A DNA stretch of 64,000 bases from Candidatus Methanosuratincola sp. (GTDB taxonomy: Archaea > Thermoproteota > Methanomethylicia > Methanomethylicales > Methanomethylicaceae), in NCBI GenBank assembly GCA_037478935.1, contig JBBFLR010000002.1, positions 88,604-152,603 on the forward strand, in the 5' to 3' direction. Both the position numbers and the translations under genes were made by a program. Positions 30,263 to 38,534 of the stretch are shown one piece after another. The notes below the pieces were generated by a model, which made no database searches, was not told the origin of the DNA, and saw nothing but the letters and a program-made list of their open reading frames with translations. How positions within the stretch are numbered: the first letter of the stretch is position 1; each line of letters starts with the position of its first letter.

Positions 30263-30353
30263 ATGACCGGCCCCCGAAGCGCCAGCCTTTTCCCAGGAAA
30301 AACCGAAAAAGTATTAAAACAGCCCAAGACCTCTTCAGATGAGGTTTTATTCG

Positions 30354-31013
30354 ATGAGTGAAGCACAGTTATTCGAGGAGTTGGCAAAAGCAGTCTACAG
30401 TGGGGATGAAGCAAAAGCAGTGGAGCTCTCAAAGAAGGCCCTAGAGGCAGGGGTCGAGCCCCTCAGGGCAATAAATGAAGGGCTCATGAAGGGGATGAGC
30501 AGGGTTGGCGACGATTTCAGCCAGCTCAAGATATACCTCCCCGAGGTGATGCTTGCGGCTGAGTCGATGAAGGCGGCCTTGGCAGTACTCGAGCCCGAGG
30601 CGCTCAAGAGGGGGGAGGCCAAAGTCAAGAGCAGGGTCGTGATAGCCACCATCACCGGCGACATCCACGACATAGGGAAGAACATCGTAGCGATGCTGAT
30701 GAGGGCTAACGGGTTCGAGGTCTATGACTTGGGCAGGGATGTTCCGATAGACGAGCTGGTAAAGAAGGCAGAGGAGGTCAAGGCCGATTTCATCTGCGCA
30801 TCCACGCTCCTCTCTACGTCGATGCCATACATGGAGGACCTGATTGCGCTCCTGAAGGAGAGAGGGATCAGGGAGAAGTACATTGTGATGGTTGGCGGCG
30901 GGCCGGTGACGCGCGAGTGGGCAGCATCGATCGGAGCTGACGGCTACGGCGACGACGGGGACGAGGCGGTGAAGGTCGCGAAGGATCTCCTCCAGAGGAG
31001 AGTTGCCGAATGA
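30354..31013 (+). CDS. Corrinoid methyl-carrier protein (MtmC-like)
   Basis: An N-terminal helical cap (FEELAKAVYSGDEAKAVEL to MLAAESMKAALAVL) is followed by a Rossmann B12-binding domain. GDIHDIGKNIVAMLMRANGF contains the DxHxxG base-off cobalamin motif, then STLLSTSMPYMEDL and VGGGPVTREWA. It carries a methyl-cobalamin between a substrate methyltransferase and a second methyltransferase. The next gene overlaps its stop by four bases (ATGA), so it is the cognate carrier of the MtmB-like protein. The ATG at 30354 with upstream GAGG is preferred over 30339. No activating RamA or MtbA-type protein is in the window. Confidence 0.93.
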   Translation: MSEAQLFEELAKAVYSGDEAKAVELSKKALEAGVEPLRAINEGLMKGMSRVGDDFSQLKIYLPEVMLAAESMKAALAVLEPEALKRGEAKVKSRVVIATITGDIHDIGKNIVAMLMRANGFEVYDLGRDVPIDELVKKAEEVKADFICASTLLSTSMPYMEDLIALLKERGIREKYIVMVGGGPVTREWAASIGADGYGDDGDEAVKVAKDLLQRRVAE

Positions 31014-32377
31014 CCTCGATCTGGGAAGTAATCGACAGGACTGAAACAGGAACTTACATGGAAGAGACCGACTTTGACCTCAAGGTCGTCGCAAAGAAGT
31101 GCAAGGACCTCGTCAAGGAGTACGACATAAGGTACGACCCGAAGCAGATAATCACATCGGACGACTCGCTCGCGGACGACGTCTTCGAGGCCGGGCTGAG
31201 GCTCGCGCTGGAGTCGGGCATATACTGCATCGACACCAAGAGGGTAGTGAAGTTCGACGAGTACGAGATAAAGGAAGGGATGATCTCCGCTCCAAGGAGG
31301 CTCCTCATCGGAGAGAACAAGGACTCGAGGATACTCTACGCCAGGGGAGTAGAGGACGAGCGCAACCCGATAATCTGCGGAGGCCAGGCAGGGGCGGCGA
31401 TACCCGAGGATTGGTACCTCCCTATGGCGATATCATACATGAAGGAGCCCCTCGTCGACATGATCAACAACGGCGGGCTCGCGGTCGTCGAGGGGAGGAA
31501 GGTCAGGACGAAGACGCCCCTGGAGATCCAAGCCACGAGGAGAGAGCTCTCGATGCTCAGGGAGGCAGCGAGGCGCGCGGGGAGGCCGGGGATCAGCTTC
31601 ATAGCTGCGGAGAGCAGCGTCTCGGCCATGGGGGACCTCGCGATTGCCAGCGAGAGGTACATGAGGAGGACGGACTCGCACCTCGTCGCGCTGCTCAACG
31701 AGCTGAAGACGGATTTCGACAGGATCTCCAAGGTGGTTAACTTCTACGAGTACGGTGCGCACAACGTGACGCTCGTCGACCCGATTATAGGCGGCTACGC
31801 GGGCGGACCGGAGGGGGTTGCGGTCTGTTTCGTTGCCTCTTTCCTCCTCGGCAGGGCCATGTACGGATCGGACTTTCACGTCTGCCACCCGATCCACTTC
31901 AGGTACATGAGCACAAGCGCGCCGGAGTGCATGTGGAACCTGAATGTCGTCGGCCAGGCCATGGCAAGGAACGCCCCGTGTATCATCATGGGGGACGTTT
32001 GGACGTCGGCAGGGGCCGGGAGCGAGATGGTGTTCTACGAGACGGCTGCAAACACAATAACGAATGTGGTCACGGGCAGCCATCCGCTTGGCGTCTCGGC
32101 AACCAACGGCAAGTACCCGCACGCAACCGGGCTCGAGACAAGGTTCATGGCGGAGATCGCACACGCAGCGGTCAGATCGAGGCTCACGCGCAAGTCGGCC
32201 AATTCGATAGTCGTCGATCTCGTGAAGAGGTACGCCGACAGGCAGGGCAAACCGGACGTGGGCAAGCCGTTCCCGGAGCTCTATGATGCTGCGAAGGTGA
32301 TACCGAAGCCGGAGTGGAACGCAACTTATCTGAAGATGAAGAAGGAAATCGCCGAGATGACCGGTCTTAAGCTCTGA
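31010..32377 (+). CDS. MtmB-family methyltransferase without pyrrolysine codon (copy 1)
   Basis: The 455-residue protein matches the monomethylamine methyltransferase MtmB family in length and along its whole course: ALESGIYCIDTKRVVKF, IICGGQAGAAIPED, GRPGISFIAAESSVSAMGD, RTDSHLVALLNELKTDFD, IIGGYAGGPEGV and GLETRFMAEIAHAAV. In Methanosarcina MtmB an amber codon near position 202 encodes pyrrolysine. Here the frame is continuous and the AESSVSAMGD region has ordinary residues. Chemistry and substrate may therefore differ from methylamine demethylation. The start ATG overlaps the corrinoid protein stop. A paralogue follows 16 bases later. Confidence 0.88.
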   Translation: MTSIWEVIDRTETGTYMEETDFDLKVVAKKCKDLVKEYDIRYDPKQIITSDDSLADDVFEAGLRLALESGIYCIDTKRVVKFDEYEIKEGMISAPRRLLIGENKDSRILYARGVEDERNPIICGGQAGAAIPEDWYLPMAISYMKEPLVDMINNGGLAVVEGRKVRTKTPLEIQATRRELSMLREAARRAGRPGISFIAAESSVSAMGDLAIASERYMRRTDSHLVALLNELKTDFDRISKVVNFYEYGAHNVTLVDPIIGGYAGGPEGVAVCFVASFLLGRAMYGSDFHVCHPIHFRYMSTSAPECMWNLNVVGQAMARNAPCIIMGDVWTSAGAGSEMVFYETAANTITNVVTGSHPLGVSATNGKYPHATGLETRFMAEIAHAAVRSRLTRKSANSIVVDLVKRYADRQGKPDVGKPFPELYDAAKVIPKPEWNATYLKMKKEIAEMTGLKL

Positions 32378-32393
32378 GCGGGGGTCGTATGGG

Positions 32394-33770
32394 ATGAAGA
32401 CCTACAGGCTTGACGAAGTGACCAGAAGGGCTCTTGAGGGCCCCTCCATGGAAGAAAAGGACTTCGACATGAAGCTGATGAGGAGGGTCAGGGAGCTCGT
32501 CAGGGAGTACGACATAAGGTACGACCCGAAGGAGCCAGTCTGCACCGACGACTCTGTGGCTGACGACGTCTACGAGGCGGCGATGAGGCTCCTCCTCGAG
32601 ATGGGTTTTTACTGCCAGACCACGAAGCGCTCCATCATCTTCGAAGAGGGCGAGATAAAGGGTGTGCTCAGGTCCCTGCCTGAGAGCATCGTGCTGGGCA
32701 CTGGCAAGGACGCGGTCACAATGAACATGAGGCGGGTCGAGGATCCCAGGCCGCCTGTGATACACGCCGGACCGACTGGGACGCTCTGCACCGAGGGCGA
32801 GGTCTACGTCAAGACGATGCGGAGCTTCGCGCAGGAGGAAGTCATCGACTCGGTGGGAGCCGGGACGCTGGCCACGATAGACGGCTTCAAGATAAGGAAG
32901 GGGACCCCGCAGGAGTTCAGGGCGGCGCGCCTCCTGGCGAGGTGGGCGAGGGAGGCGATAAGCCAGGCTGGGAGGCCGGGTATGCACATAAACGACGTCG
33001 CCGTGGTCAGCCCAGAGGCGAAGCTTTGCGCACTGGACCCCGCCTACGGGCTGAGGCCGAGCGACGGCATAATAGTCTCCCAGATGATAGAGCTCAAGAC
33101 GAGCCTGCAGCACCTCTCGCTAGTTGAGCACCTCCAGAGCTACGGGATCCACATCGGCAACCTGATGACCCCGATCCTGGGCGGGTACTCTGGCGGACCC
33201 GAGGGGACAGCGGTAGTGAACGTCGCAGAGCACATAGCAGGCGTTTTGTGCTACAGCGCGAGCTACCACTACTGCAGTTTGACCAACGTGAAGAACCTAA
33301 ACGGGACGGACCGCCCGGGGCTGTGGGCGATAAGCATGGTTGGGCAGGCCCTCTCAAGGAACTCAGAGGTCATGAGCGTTTACGATTGCTACTGCGCGAG
33401 CGGGCCCGGGGAGGAGATGCTCCTCCTGGAGGCGGCCGCAGGCGGGATCGCGGCATCGGTCGCCGGGATGAACGTGATGGGCTGCGGGTCGTGCGGCGGG
33501 AAGCTGGTCGACCATTCCACGGGGCTGGAGGCCAGGATGCTAAAGGAGGCGGCAGCCGCTGCAGCCGGCATGAGCAGGGCGGACGCAAACGAAGTCCTGA
33601 ACAGGATCCTCCCAAGATACGAGGAGAGGCTTGACATCTCCAGGGCACCCAAGGGCAGGACCTTCCAAGAGCTCTACGACTTGGCCTCAGCCAGACCCAA
33701 GAGGGAATGGCAAGACCTTTATCAGAAGGTTTCAAGAGATCTCTCAGACTTGGGCCTAGAAATCCCCTGA
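32394..33770 (+). CDS. MtmB-family methyltransferase without pyrrolysine codon (copy 2)
   Basis: A 458-residue paralogue of the preceding gene, the canonical MtmB length. Shared landmarks are EYDIRYDPKEPVCTDDSVAD, LLEMGFYCQTTKRS, VLGTGKDAVTMNMRRVED, IHAGPTGTLCTEGEVY, ILGGYSGGPEGTAVV, HSTGLEARMLKEAAA and GRTFQELYDL. The region aligned with the pyrrolysine site reads NDVAVVSPEAKLCALDP and has no in-frame UAG. The two copies are clearly diverged, suggesting two substrates or a heteromer using one corrinoid protein. A long polypyrimidine tract immediately downstream probably ends the transcript. Confidence 0.88.
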   Translation: MKTYRLDEVTRRALEGPSMEEKDFDMKLMRRVRELVREYDIRYDPKEPVCTDDSVADDVYEAAMRLLLEMGFYCQTTKRSIIFEEGEIKGVLRSLPESIVLGTGKDAVTMNMRRVEDPRPPVIHAGPTGTLCTEGEVYVKTMRSFAQEEVIDSVGAGTLATIDGFKIRKGTPQEFRAARLLARWAREAISQAGRPGMHINDVAVVSPEAKLCALDPAYGLRPSDGIIVSQMIELKTSLQHLSLVEHLQSYGIHIGNLMTPILGGYSGGPEGTAVVNVAEHIAGVLCYSASYHYCSLTNVKNLNGTDRPGLWAISMVGQALSRNSEVMSVYDCYCASGPGEEMLLLEAAAGGIAASVAGMNVMGCGSCGGKLVDHSTGLEARMLKEAAAAAAGMSRADANEVLNRILPRYEERLDISRAPKGRTFQELYDLASARPKREWQDLYQKVSRDLSDLGLEIP

Positions 33771-33873: not shown

Positions 33874-34815
33874 TCACCGCTCCCTTCCAATCCTCTTTCC
33901 CAGGCTGGCGGGACCCCTAACGCCCCTCCCTCCGACAACAAGCGCGATAAGCGCGACAAGATAGGGAAGCAGTGCGAAGAGCTGGTTCATTGAGGCGCCC
34001 GAAAGCTCAGGGAATATTACTCCAATCCTTAGCGACAGAGCCTCGGTGAAACCGAAGAGCAGCGAGCCGGCGAGGGCTCCCCACGGGTTCCACCGCCCCA
34101 GGATGACTATCGAGACAGCGACGAAGCCCCTCGCAGCGACTATCCTGGGATCAAAAGTGTTGAACATCGATATCGTAAGCATTCCGCCAGCCAATCCTGC
34201 TAGGACGCCCTCCGTCAATAGGGCAGCATACCTCATCTTTAAGACGTTTATGCCGAGGTAGGAGGCTATAACAGGATCCTCGCCGATCGACCTGAGGCGG
34301 AGGCCGAACGTTGTCCTGGTCAGAAGCACGTAGATAAGAGGGACGGACAGCAGCCCGAGGTACACAAACCCAGTCTGTGAGAACAGGACCTCCCCCAGGA
34401 ACGGGATCCCGGACAGGATCGGGATAGGCATTGGTCCGAAAAGGTCCCCGAGGTACGGTGAGACGCCCCCGGTGAACAGCACCCTTGTAAAGTAGAGTGT
34501 GAGTCCGCTGGCGAGGAGGTTGATCGCCAGGCCCGAAACCACCTGATCGAGATCGAGATTTATCACCAGGACACCGAAGAGGAGGGTAGTTAGCACCCCG
34601 CCGATTACTGCCGATGCCAGTCCGAGCCAGAGGCTCCCGGCGAAGTAAGCGCCCATGAACCCGGAGAATGCGCCGACGAGCATCGCACCCTGGACGCCCA
34701 AGTTCAGCATCCCTCCCCTCTCGGCGATGGTCTCGCCAAGCGAGGCTAGCAAGAGCGGCGCGGCCACCCTAAGGGTGGCGGCAGCTAGGCCCGCAATCAC
34801 TATCCACTCGATCAT
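33874..34815 (-). CDS. BMP/nucleoside-type ABC transporter permease (second)
   Basis: The product is a 313-residue permease with about nine to ten helices, of the YufQ-like branch-chain permease superfamily. It opens WIVIAGLAAATLRVAAPLLLASLG and contains ERGGMLNLGVQGAMLVGAF, the family motif. GLRLRSIGEDPVIASYLGINV is the cytosolic coupling loop. Its start overlaps the preceding permease gene by four bases. Last gene of the four-gene transporter operon. Confidence 0.92.
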   Translation of the reverse strand: MIEWIVIAGLAAATLRVAAPLLLASLGETIAERGGMLNLGVQGAMLVGAFSGFMGAYFAGSLWLGLASAVIGGVLTTLLFGVLVINLDLDQVVSGLAINLLASGLTLYFTRVLFTGGVSPYLGDLFGPMPIPILSGIPFLGEVLFSQTGFVYLGLLSVPLIYVLLTRTTFGLRLRSIGEDPVIASYLGINVLKMRYAALLTEGVLAGLAGGMLTISMFNTFDPRIVAARGFVAVSIVILGRWNPWGALAGSLLFGFTEALSLRIGVIFPELSGASMNQLFALLPYLVALIALVVGGRGVRGPASLGKRIGRER

Positions 34816-35867
34816 AGCTTCAACACCCCGCGCCTCTCAAGTAAGCGCACCAGTGGCTCAGACGCGAGAACGAATATGAACAGGAGGCCCTGCATCAGGT
34901 CGACTATCCCCATCGGTATGTTCATCGTCCAGGCGAGCGTCGAGGAGCCGTTCATTATCGCGGCCAGGAAGAGGGAGGCCAGCGCAACCCCCAGGGGGTT
35001 GTTATTACCGAGGAGCGCCACCACTATCCCGGTGAAGCCATAGCCAGGGGAAAGGGATCCCCTCACCCTGAACTGGATCCCCATAACCTCAGTTATGCCA
35101 GCGAGTCCGGCCAGAAGTCCACTGAATATAAGCGAGACGAAAATGGTCTTCCCTATCGCCATCCCGCCATACCGTGCGGCTTCCGGGTTCTCCCCTACGA
35201 CCTTAACTTTGAACCCGAACGTCGTCCTCTCAAGCAGGAAATAGACTACGGGCACCAGTGCAAGTGCGAGTGCTACTCCCATGTGGAGGCGGGTTCCCGG
35301 CAGGATTACCGCAAGCGCGGACGATGATGGTATTGCCGCCGACTCCGGGAAGTAAGTGTCAGGGCTCCTGAAAGGGTAAGAGATCATCCACTGCACCAGA
35401 TAGATCCCGACGAAGTTCATCAGGAATGTGGTAATCACCTCGTTGATCCCGAGCTTTACCTTCATCAATGCTGGCCCAGCCGCCCACAGAAGCCCTCCTA
35501 TAGCACCGATTACCAGCGCAGCCACAAGCGATAGAAAACCGCCTCCGATCCCGATCGCCACAATGGTGCCGAGCATTGCCCCTATGTAAAGCTGCCCCTC
35601 TGCCCCGATGTTCCATATCTTGCACTTGAATGAGACGGCTAAGCCCAATGAAACGATGAGTATGGGGGTCATCCTTATCAGGGTCTCTGAGAGGAGGTTT
35701 ATGTCGCCGAAGGCACCCTGAAACAAGTAGATGAATGCGATTATGGGGTTGACGTTGTTTATCAGGAAGACTACCGATGTCACTGCCAGTGTCAGCGCCA
35801 CTGACAGCAGTGCCTTGACGATGGAGCGCTTTGTGCCCCTTGAGACGGTTAGCTGGTTCGCCCCCAA
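34812..35867 (-). CDS. BMP/nucleoside-type ABC transporter permease (first)
   Basis: This is a YufP-like permease of 351 residues with about ten helices. Family features are CKIWNIGAEGQLYIGAMLGT and the coupling loop FKVKVVGENPEAARYGGMAI. It forms the transmembrane channel with the neighbouring permease. It starts 2 bases after the ATPase stop and overlaps the next gene (ATGA), so the subunits are made in stoichiometric order. Confidence 0.92.
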   Translation of the reverse strand: MGANQLTVSRGTKRSIVKALLSVALTLAVTSVVFLINNVNPIIAFIYLFQGAFGDINLLSETLIRMTPILIVSLGLAVSFKCKIWNIGAEGQLYIGAMLGTIVAIGIGGGFLSLVAALVIGAIGGLLWAAGPALMKVKLGINEVITTFLMNFVGIYLVQWMISYPFRSPDTYFPESAAIPSSSALAVILPGTRLHMGVALALALVPVVYFLLERTTFGFKVKVVGENPEAARYGGMAIGKTIFVSLIFSGLLAGLAGITEVMGIQFRVRGSLSPGYGFTGIVVALLGNNNPLGVALASLFLAAIMNGSSTLAWTMNIPMGIVDLMQGLLFIFVLASEPLVRLLERRGVLKL

Positions 35868-35868
35868 C

Positions 35869-37458
35869 TCATTTAGCCCCCAGCATCAGTCTTGAAAGCC
35901 GTTCGATGTCCAAGTTCTCCGGTACGAACTCCCCTACGATCTTGCCACCGAAGACCACACATATCCTGTCGCTCAGCTTCATTATCTCGTCGAGGTCTGA
36001 GGAGACGAGGAGAATCCCGACACCCTTCGACCTTAGCTCGACCAGCTTATTATGCACGGCCTCGGAGGCCTTTATGTCGAGGCCGGCGGTTGGCTGCTCA
36101 GCTATGAGGACCACCCCGCCGTTTGAGAGCTCCCTGGCCACTATGAGCTTCTGTATGTTCCCGCCCGAGAGGTTCTCTACAGATGCGCATGGATCCGAAG
36201 CCTTTATCGAGAAGCGGGAGATCAGGCTTTCGGCGTTCTTGAGCATTGATGCCCTGTCAATTATCCTGTTCTTGCTCATTGGTGGCTTCTCGATGCACTT
36301 GAGAGCCAAGTTTTCGTGAATTCCCATTGTGAGCACAACCCCCCTGTGCATCCTGTCCTCGGGTATGTAGGAGACGCCATTCTCAATTATGAAGCTTGTC
36401 GGCTTGTTCGTGATGTCCTGCGAGGAGAGCCTTACTGTCCCTGATTCGACCTTCCTTAGTCCGGTTATTGCCTCCACCAGCTCCTTCTGTCCGTTTCCTG
36501 CAACCCCTGCGATTCCGACGATCTCCCCGGATCTGATCTCCAAGCTCAGCCCGTCAACTGCAGTCCGCCCGCGATCGTCGTTTACCCTGAGAGACTCCAC
36601 TTTGAGGACCGTATCGCCAGGGGTACCGCGCCCCAACGATGAGGCGGGAACCATGCCCTCGACCACAAGCGAGGCCAAGAGGGCTTCGTTGGCTTCAGAG
36701 GTCGGAATAGTCTTGATCACCCTTCCACCGCGCAGTACAGTTATCCGGTCACTTATCTGGAGGGCTTCTTTCATCTTGTGAGTGATTAACACGATCGTCT
36801 TTCCGGAGGACTTCAAATCCCTTATCATCTTGAAGAAGGAGTCCACTTCGATTGGCGTCAAGACCGAAGTAGGCTCGTCGAGTATCAGGATCCTGACGTC
36901 CTGGCAGAGCAGCCGGAGGATCTCGACCAACTGCCTCTTGCCAACCGGTAGGCTTTCGATCTTAGATTCAGGGTCGATCTCGAGCCCCATCTCCTTCGAT
37001 ACAGCAATTATCTTTTCGTCGACCTTCTTCAGATCCAGCCAGGCGGACGATGCAAGGACCAAGGCAACATTCTCCCGCACGGTGAACTCAGGGATGAGCG
37101 TGAAGTGCTGGTGTACCATCCCTATCCCGAGCCGGGATGCGTCCCTCGGATCTCTAATTCTTGCGGGTTTACCATCAATGAAAATTTCTCCGGAGTCTGG
37201 TTTCAGGATCCCTGAGATTATCCGCATCAGGGTTGTCTTCCCGGCACCGTTCTCACCTAGGATGGCATGGACCTCACCCTTCAGTATCCCCAGGGTCACA
37301 TCACGGTTAGCCACGGTGCCGTTCGCGAAGGTCTTGGATACGCCTTTGAGGAATATAGCATACGCTTCGTTCGGAACGCCTGTACTATCTCCTTTACCCT
37401 CAAAAAAAGGGGGGGAAAGTGGCGTGATTGCCACCTCCTTATGGACTTGGTGGATCAA
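35869..37458 (-). CDS. BMP/nucleoside-type ABC transporter ATPase with two ABC domains
   Basis: This 529-residue protein has tandem ABC modules. The first has ILGENGAGKTTLMRIISG and RILILDEPTSVLTPIEV. The second has a degenerate P-loop GIAGVAGNGQKELVEAI, signature ENLSGGNIQKLIVAREL and IAEQPTAGLDIKA. This matches the YufO/RbsA-like ATPase of nucleoside (BMP-type) importers. The start is unclear: the TTG at 37458 overlaps the binding-protein gene by 20 bases, and a GTG at 37434 abuts a GGAGG sequence. Confidence 0.93.
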   Translation of the reverse strand: MIHQVHKEVAITPLSPPFFEGKGDSTGVPNEAYAIFLKGVSKTFANGTVANRDVTLGILKGEVHAILGENGAGKTTLMRIISGILKPDSGEIFIDGKPARIRDPRDASRLGIGMVHQHFTLIPEFTVRENVALVLASSAWLDLKKVDEKIIAVSKEMGLEIDPESKIESLPVGKRQLVEILRLLCQDVRILILDEPTSVLTPIEVDSFFKMIRDLKSSGKTIVLITHKMKEALQISDRITVLRGGRVIKTIPTSEANEALLASLVVEGMVPASSLGRGTPGDTVLKVESLRVNDDRGRTAVDGLSLEIRSGEIVGIAGVAGNGQKELVEAITGLRKVESGTVRLSSQDITNKPTSFIIENGVSYIPEDRMHRGVVLTMGIHENLALKCIEKPPMSKNRIIDRASMLKNAESLISRFSIKASDPCASVENLSGGNIQKLIVARELSNGGVVLIAEQPTAGLDIKASEAVHNKLVELRSKGVGILLVSSDLDEIMKLSDRICVVFGGKIVGEFVPENLDIERLSRLMLGAK

Positions 37459-38443
37459 AATTGAGTGGAACTACCACTGAGCCGTTCAAGATCTGCTGCA
37501 CAAGCGTGTCGCTATAGGCCTTCGCCTCAGGGAACTTGGCGGCATTGACCGGGTTCCAGACGAACTTGGACGAGCCCTTGCTCATCGAAGCGATGTAATC
37601 GCCCGGGGTGAAAGTCCCGTTCTGGGCGCGCTGTATGAGCTCCTTTACCATCGGGTAGGTGTCCCAGACCACGCTCCCGATCACTGCCTCAGACGCATTG
37701 TTCTGATCCACAATATTACCAAAGGCGTAGGCAATTATCTTGCCAGTGTTGTCCTTGCATGCCTCAAAGACTCCGTATCTCTCCGAGTATATCACGTCGA
37801 CACCGGACTCGATAAGCCCGGCGGCGGCCTCCTTAGCCTTCGAGGGCGCGTACCAGTCATAGATATAGGAAATGACGATGTTAACGCTGGGGTTCACTGA
37901 CTTAGCCCCTGCGATGAAACCGTTCAGTAGGTTGTCGACATCTCCGACTCCCGGGAATGCAGTGACTATGCCTATCTTACTCGTGTTGGTTATCTTGGCC
38001 GCGATTGCGCCGGCGACATAGGCAGCCTCCTGTATGTGGTAGTCATAGAGGACGGTATTGTTCCCGTAGTTCATGTTCATGCCCGAACCCTGTGCGAAGA
38101 AGACGCTCCTGTACTGGGCCGCGGTCGTGTTTGTCACAGGGTGGTAACTCCAGCTGTGCGGGAAGATCATCTTGAAGCCGGCAGAGACGTACTGTGTCAT
38201 CACCATCGCAACCGCCGAGTCGCCAACGTTCTCGGAGTAGTTGTATGCGATCCCCAGTTCGTTCTTCGCCTTCAATAGAGATTGGTGCAGGGCCTGGTTC
38301 CATGGCTCTTCCAAGGGGGATATGTAGATCGCCGCTACCTTGAACTGCTCTGGCTGAGGGGGCAATGTTGTTGTGTAGTAGTAGGCTCCAGCAATCACTA
38401 TGATTGCTACAACAATCAAACCTATCACAAACGAGGTCTTCAT
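37439..38443 (-). CDS. BMP-family ABC transporter substrate-binding protein
   Basis: An N-terminal membrane anchor (SFVIGLIVVAIIVIAGAYYY) is followed by a BMP/PnrA-like periplasmic-binding domain beginning FKVAAIYISPLEEPWNQALH. GIVTAFPGVGDVDNLLNGF and GVDVIYSERYGVFEACKDN are family-like segments. Bacterial relatives bind purine nucleosides; some archaeal relatives take other ligands. The tether would hold it outside the membrane. The ATG at 38443 is chosen over a TTG at 38449. It is the first gene of the operon. Confidence 0.9.
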   Translation of the reverse strand: MKTSFVIGLIVVAIIVIAGAYYYTTTLPPQPEQFKVAAIYISPLEEPWNQALHQSLLKAKNELGIAYNYSENVGDSAVAMVMTQYVSAGFKMIFPHSWSYHPVTNTTAAQYRSVFFAQGSGMNMNYGNNTVLYDYHIQEAAYVAGAIAAKITNTSKIGIVTAFPGVGDVDNLLNGFIAGAKSVNPSVNIVISYIYDWYAPSKAKEAAAGLIESGVDVIYSERYGVFEACKDNTGKIIAYAFGNIVDQNNASEAVIGSVVWDTYPMVKELIQRAQNGTFTPGDYIASMSKGSSKFVWNPVNAAKFPEAKAYSDTLVQQILNGSVVVPLNFDPPSP

Positions 38444-38534
38444 AAACAATCACCCATATCCGACTTTAACTTTTATTAGCCCGTATAAAAATTTTTTTTA
38501 CATAAAAGAATCAATTACCATGAACTAGTAAATT

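Follow-up and report, generated by a model that had tools for sequence, protein, structure and literature searches.

Two conserved pyrrolysine-free MtmB homologues in Candidatus Methanosuratincola as candidate methylamine methyltransferases

A widespread explanation for pyrrolysine (Pyl) is that simple methylamines are chemically hard to demethylate. In Methanosarcina barkeri, the monomethylamine methyltransferase MtmB1 (structures 1L2Q and 1NTH) carries this residue at position 202. Here we describe a gene cluster from Candidatus Methanosuratincola, a heat-loving, methane-making archaeon, in which the gene of a corrinoid protein, MtxC, is followed by those of two MtmB homologues free of pyrrolysine, M1 and M2. 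The cluster lies in a stretch of 64,000 nucleotides, the window, taken from contig JBBFLR010000002.1 of assembly GCA_037478935.1 (positions 88,604 to 152,603). M1 and M2 resemble MtmB1 in length, in the TIM-barrel fold, and in having a cognate corrinoid protein; they differ from it in lacking Pyl202, in the replacement of three pocket residues, and in belonging to a separate clade.

A functional MtmB-family methyltransferase without pyrrolysine, MtqB from Methanococcoides methylutens Q3c, was described in 2026 (PMC13044021). The enzyme methylated cob(I)alamin at 37 nmol/min/mg with tetramethylammonium, 42 with choline, and 11 with monomethylamine, and the same study presented a tree of 1,061 Pyl and non-Pyl MtmBs (PMC13044021). 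A preliminary description of the window, made from its sequence, had held that Pyl-less relatives are much less known for MtmB, a statement now overtaken by this work. Since MtqB demethylates amines without pyrrolysine, the chemistry is possible for a non-Pyl MtmB. Both systems comprise a non-Pyl PF05369 protein encoded beside a corrinoid gene, which is of the MtbC type for MtqB. MtqB is the one MtmB homologue of its system, in a methylotroph that decodes Pyl and has MtbA, whereas the cluster treated here has a tandem pair, a genome without detected PylS or MtbA, and an adjacent BMP-type importer; MtqB is likened here from its published description. The non-Pyl demethylases MtgB, MtcB, MtyB, and MtpB share the principle of Pyl-free amine demethylation to a corrinoid, but belong to a different family (MttB, PF06253), of which the window genome has no member.

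Methylamine use was earlier judged unlikely in these archaea, pyl and mtbA being missing (PMC6783470). The presence of mtmB in Methanomethylicia has also been noted, and MtaA was suggested as a substitute for MtbA (PMC10033731). Methanol and monomethylamine support growth of the isolate M. petrocarbonis LWZ-6, which does not use dimethylamine, trimethylamine, betaine, or methanethiol; choline was not among the substrates tested (PMC12244365). This range mirrors a gene set of one MtaB together with M1 and M2, and monomethylamine is thus indicated for at least one copy. With an isolate of the genus able to grow on methylamine, M1 and M2 are prime candidates for natural pyrrolysine-free methylamine use.

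With a probability of roughly 0.6, the cluster serves a hydrogen-dependent methyl-reducing methanogen as a methylated-amine:corrinoid methyltransferase system that works independently of pyrrolysine. More tentatively, at somewhat less than even odds, M1, M2, or both may be the physiological monomethylamine methyltransferase of Methanosuratincola, in which an aspartate and an aromatic residue would take the place of pyrrolysine; most likely at least one of the two accepts monomethylamine in vivo. As far as the openly accessible literature shows, novelty lies in the conserved, divergent pair itself, in the pocket specific to it, in its link to an importer, and in its occurrence in a genus that lacks Pyl and grows on monomethylamine. 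If the proposal is true, growth on monomethylamine does not depend on the 22nd amino acid, and a natural comparison for the role of pyrrolysine becomes available. A lineage growing on monomethylamine with only Pyl-free MtmB would render the current explanation of pyrrolysine directly testable. It would also correct genome-based forecasts that excluded methylamine use on the grounds of missing pyl and mtbA (PMC6783470). The linked importer offers a concrete route to further methyl donors of a little-studied class of methanogens.

The MtxC, M1, and M2 proteins and the donor pocket

The window DNA comes from a Methanosuratincola-type genome of the class Methanomethylicia, and its nearest named relatives are Candidatus Methanosuratincola genomes (91-96% identity in M1). 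The preliminary description had recognized a corrinoid protein with two tandem full-length MtmB homologues, and the reading frames, family, PDB matches, and fold all bear this out. Full-length PF05369 matches reach 368 bits for M1 and 346 bits for M2, against a gathering cut-off of 25 bits. The top PDB match of both is M. barkeri MtmB1 (E about 1e-68 and 1e-70, respectively), whose structures are the only PDB relatives found by sequence for either copy. AlphaFold models show the MtmB-type TIM barrel, with template modelling (TM) scores against 1NTH/1L2Q of 0.91 for M1 and 0.87 for M2; the M2 model is of moderate confidence, with a mean predicted local distance difference test (pLDDT) value of 74. 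The two copies share 38% identity with each other, and either shares 32-33% with MtmB1.

MtxC contains both Pfam domains B12-binding and B12-binding_2, with the conserved cobalt-ligand motif DIHDIG (DxHxxG). Its score of 225.8 bits against TIGR02370 (methylamine-type corrinoid proteins) exceeds the cut-off of 215.3, whereas against NF041607, the profile of the dimethylamine corrinoid protein MtbC, it reaches 192 bits, below the equivalog cut-off of 350. Its gene overlaps that of M1 by 4 nucleotides, and 16 nucleotides separate M1 from M2. The cluster start proposed earlier, 30354, is indeed an in-frame ATG, but the second one, the frame of MtxC opening 15 nucleotides upstream (Table 1). An AT-rich, TATA-like sequence, AAAAAGTATTAAAAC (window 30300-30340), lies 20-30 nucleotides 5' of the first ATG, a spacing as expected of a nearly leaderless archaeal transcript.

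Table 1. Features of the cluster and of the neighbouring importer (window positions)
Feature	Position	Strand	Remarks
Corrinoid protein MtxC, 224 amino acids, putative methyl carrier for M1/M2	30339..31013	+	Alternative ATG at 30354
M1, pyrrolysine-free MtmB homologue, 455 amino acids	31010..32377	+	PF05369, E=1e-109
M1 Ile198 codon, column of Pyl202 of M. barkeri MtmB1	31601..31603	+	Alignments
M1 Asp329, column of MtmB1 Gln333, invariant	31994..31996	+	Alignments
M2, second pyrrolysine-free MtmB homologue, 458 amino acids	32394..33770	+	PF05369, E=3e-103
M2 Asn200 codon, column of Pyl202 of M. barkeri MtmB1	32991..32993	+	Alignments
M2 Asp331, column of MtmB1 Gln333, invariant	33384..33386	+	Alignments
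M2 Cys332-Tyr-Cys334, first half of tetracysteine pattern, putative metal site	33387..33395	+	17/17 M2
M2 Cys364-Gly-Ser-Cys367, second half of tetracysteine pattern	33483..33494	+	17/17 M2
ABC permease of BMP-type importer	33874..34815	-	PF02653; conserved neighbour
ABC permease of BMP-type importer	34812..35867	-	PF02653; conserved neighbour
ABC ATP-binding protein of BMP-type importer	35869..37458	-	PF00005, two stretches
BMP-type solute-binding protein	37439..38449	-	PF02608; only such gene in genome

Neither M1 nor M2 contains an in-frame UAG. The earlier claim of ordinary, copy-specific residues at the pyrrolysine position proved correct, and comparison with PF05369 members and the MtmB structures, which that description had proposed, agreed on family and fold and mapped the replacements. 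Across 66 aligned proteins, every M1 has Ile or Leu in the column of Pyl202, and every M2 has Asn. Three further residues of MtmB1, Glu229, Glu259, and Gln333, belong to the pyrrolysine pocket. Their columns become Leu, Leu, and Asp in M1, and Ile or Leu, Leu, and Asp in M2; all three residues are retained in the UAG-containing MtmB copies of two relatives, genomes G169 and G234. The column of MtmB1 Tyr335 holds Trp in M1 (Trp331) and Tyr in M2 (Tyr333). A hidden pyrrolysine or read-through in M1 or M2 was ruled out, as there is neither an internal UAG nor a PylS.

The substrate, the roles of the catalytic residues, the pairing with the carrier, and the division of labour between M1 and M2 are inferred. 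As TIM barrels of the MtmB fold, M1 and M2 would pass the methyl group from the amine directly to the Co(I) of MtxC. Holding the donor nitrogen is the probable role of the invariant aspartate (329/331) and the aromatic residue (Trp331/Tyr333), in a pocket that has otherwise become non-polar. Methyltransferases of the MtaA type, in place of the absent MtbA, would transfer the methyl group to coenzyme M, RamA would keep the corrinoid reduced, and Mcr would release methane.

Pyrrolysine decoding, methanogenesis genes, and conservation of the pair

PylS was not found above cut-off in the window genome (96.5% complete), in which pylBCD and tRNA-Pyl were not separately searched, nor in seven other genomes of its genus, eight in total. 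The identical search clearly detected PylS in G169 and G234, which served as positive controls. Weak matches of 18-28 bits occurred in most genomes, as well as in Escherichia coli and other controls; they fall far under the 178-bit cut-off and were rejected as true PylS. A scan of the window for tRNAs found none, tRNA-Pyl not having been searched genome-wide. The expectation of the preliminary description that the genome does not decode pyrrolysine agrees with the PylS result, but its argument from the UAG stop of the neighbouring gene of aldehyde:ferredoxin oxidoreductase (AOR) does not hold. UAG ends 9 of the 49 predicted genes of the window, that of AOR included, and because Pyl-using archaea likewise terminate genes at UAG (PMC2933860), such stops alone are no argument against Pyl decoding.

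Beyond M1 and M2 the window genome has no PF05369 gene, and neither MttB (PF06253) nor MtbB (PF09505) was found there or in four other tested members of the genus. Mcr is present, as are MtaB for methanol and, near it, a second corrinoid protein and RamA. The genome search proposed earlier for mtbA and ramA alongside pyl yielded RamA (783 bits) and three MtaA/MtbA-type proteins, two of which exceed the MtaA cut-off and none of which reaches that of MtbA. This gene set is that of a hydrogen-dependent methyl-reducing methanogen, with M1 and M2 as its sole recognized amine methyltransferases. That such a methanogen is the host, and that an isolate of its genus grows on monomethylamine, had escaped the preliminary description. 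Corrinoid proteins number four in all; one adjoins a core methionine synthase and an MtrH-like protein on contig C13 (L105:6896-9317), a unit possibly devoted to corrinoid-linked methionine synthesis.

Genes of PF05369 occur in 47 of 398 genomes of the phylum. Throughout the window's family, the corrinoid gene, M1, and M2 stand in tandem in almost all genomes whose contig could be read, and a second family, f11, has a diverged M1-like and M2-like tandem (genome G143). M1 and M2 form separate, well supported clades in the tree, with the same picture when the longest branch is left out. The f11 M2-like protein groups firmly with M2 (100/99), and the M1-like protein weakly with M1 (89/68). A sister relationship of M1 and M2 is suggested by the tree (bootstrap 91-93). 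In G169 and G234, the UAG-containing MtmB clusters with M. barkeri MtmB1 (100/99), away from M1 and M2; the pair did not, therefore, arise from a local Pyl copy by recent codon loss.

Ratios of non-synonymous to synonymous substitution rates (dN/dS) are 0.04-0.10 for M1 and 0.05-0.12 for M2, indicating strong purifying selection, and with values of 0.04-0.12 the possibility that M1 and M2 are pseudogenes was ruled out. Among invariant columns, 82 are identical in both copies and 71 are fixed but different, as would be expected for two distinct retained roles. M1 and M2 are old, separately conserved lineages, a pattern that would fit either suggestion of the preliminary description, two methyl donors or a heteromer. 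Two other candidates were discarded. An apparent M1-M2 fusion in M. petrocarbonis V4 (961-residue frame, L009) crosses a run of N, and the upstream AOR and ferredoxin genes are not retained as neighbours of the pair in genera g4 and g5 or in f11. In family f34, probably Thermofilaceae and including single-contig genomes, a lone sister gene of M1 occurs without an M2 type (L083-L086, L095-L104). Its members are not known to be methanogens. In three of its genomes a corrinoid gene adjoins the M1-sister.

The linked importer and alternative explanations

Downstream of M2 and convergent with it lies an importer of the ATP-binding cassette (ABC) type with a BMP-type binding protein, a conserved association overlooked by the preliminary description. 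Within the window's family, each tested genome with M1 and M2 has exactly one PF02608 gene, except G234 (59% complete), where two importer permease genes are retained before the contig ends. The distance from PF02608 gene to pair is 3.6-6.1 kb in 11 of 14 genomes of the family; in the other three the gene is on a separate contig and the mtmB contig ends in between. G169, with Pyl-MtmB but not the pair, lacks the BMP gene, and so does G090, in which MtmB is missing altogether; G109 is a counter-example, as it has the BMP gene although it is devoid of MtmB. In f11, importer and corrinoid gene are divergently oriented. Five genomes of a third family, f17 (L090-L094), have a RamA (assigned by reading of the sequence), a corrinoid gene, a distant MtmB homologue, and MtaB, and then a convergent BMP importer. 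The chance of a single-copy gene lying so close is about 1% per genome; as members of a family are not independent, the association was counted as three lineages and not as seventeen.

The closest solved relative of the BMP protein is the guanine-binding AtzT, whose contact residues are listed in PMC6834077. The linked protein shares its fold family with AtzT and with the purine-binding BMP-type protein 3S99 of Brucella, but is changed in a conserved manner at positions 165, 169, 218, and 220 of the guanine site. In the homologues of the three families, aligned at low identity, Ser97 and Trp194 are kept, and essentially all have Glu165 altered to Asp, Asn169 to Leu, Asn218 to Glu, and Asn220 to Tyr or Phe, the single exception being a Glu at position 220 in one homologue. 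With its two acidic and several aromatic residues, such a pocket would be fit for an organic cation.

Several points weigh against the proposed methylamine system. The activity of M1 and M2 is inferred from homology, the assignment of this gene set to LWZ-6 rests on relatives, and pyrrolysine was held essential for the activation of monomethylamine. By analogy with MtqB, a non-Pyl MtmB may prefer quaternary amines, and a conserved ABC importer is superfluous for monomethylamine. The importer link hints that the true donor could be a larger organic cation that the BMP system imports, such as a quaternary or N-methylated amine, with monomethylamine left as a side activity or to other enzymes. 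This is rather unlikely in our estimate, even though every sufficiently long contig of the family has the only PF02608 gene next to the pair, f11 and f17 repeat the link with a different gene orientation, the altered binding pocket would suit a cation, and MtqB itself prefers choline and tetramethylammonium. The importer is convergent with the methyltransferase operon and outside it, in f17 it adjoins the MtaB gene too, and G109 has the BMP gene without any MtmB; the pocket reading comes from a low-identity alignment, and betaine is not used by LWZ-6 (choline not tested). A related question is whether the copies work apart. They might instead form one hetero-oligomer with one or both barrels catalytic, MtxC docking across the M1-M2 interface. 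The fixed order and tight spacing of the genes in f11 and in the members of the window's family with readable contigs would agree with this, as would the 71 columns invariant in each copy and different between them. Both MtmB and MttB assemble into D3 hexamers, the carrier of the MttB-MttC complex touching two adjacent subunits (PMC9842639). We regard the hetero-oligomer, drawn by analogy, as possible but lean against it, as the solitary M1-sister of f34 argues that the M1 type can work without M2 and both copies keep a conserved pocket.

In M2, a CxC (332, 334) and a CxxC (364, 367) occur in all 17 sequences, all of one family, at the ends of two predicted barrel strands that adjoin each other, and all four cysteines are missing from M1 and from Pyl-MtmB. 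The pattern might be a metal site, to which we give little weight. Zinc-cysteine sites at barrel ends are found in MtaA/MtbA, MtaB, and homocysteine methyltransferases, and with MtbA missing from the genome, M2 could be imagined as a zinc-type metal enzyme that complements M1, acting on a thiol or other donor or transferring methyl groups from MtxC to a thiol. This is improbable: three MtaA-type proteins are already available, the f11 M2-like protein retains Cys332 alone of the four cysteines, and the M2 model is too uncertain for the geometry of the site, its confidence being below 50 in the second loop. The replacement of pyrrolysine together with all three further pocket residues examined, and the presence of the family in f34, a group not known for methanogenesis, could also suggest a neofunctionalized MtmB fold in which neither M1 nor M2 is a methyltransferase. 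We consider this very improbable, given the adjacent corrinoid gene throughout the window's family, in f11, and in others, and the precedent of MtqB.

Other MtmB-family genes in relatives

Genome G169 (genus g7 of the window's family) has a complete cassette of PylB, PylC, PylD, and PylS (L073, contig C34, 1-10152), in which PylS is without its N-terminal domain. The cassette is accompanied by UAG-containing mtmB and mtbB, and the genome is devoid of M1, M2, and the BMP gene. G234 has a UAG-containing mtmB and PylS as well as M1 and M2. Beside the cassette of G169, on the minus strand (L073:8817-10151), lies the gene of a third PF05369 protein, highly diverged, which has Thr at position 202 and no NCBIfam match. 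More Pyl-less MtmB types, with other residues at 202, 229, 259, and 333, were seen in families f26 (L080-L082), f36 (L076-L077), and f8 (L087). In f36, a transporter protein with a duplicated ATPase, similar to those of energy-coupling factor (ECF) systems, is encoded immediately upstream of the corrinoid gene.

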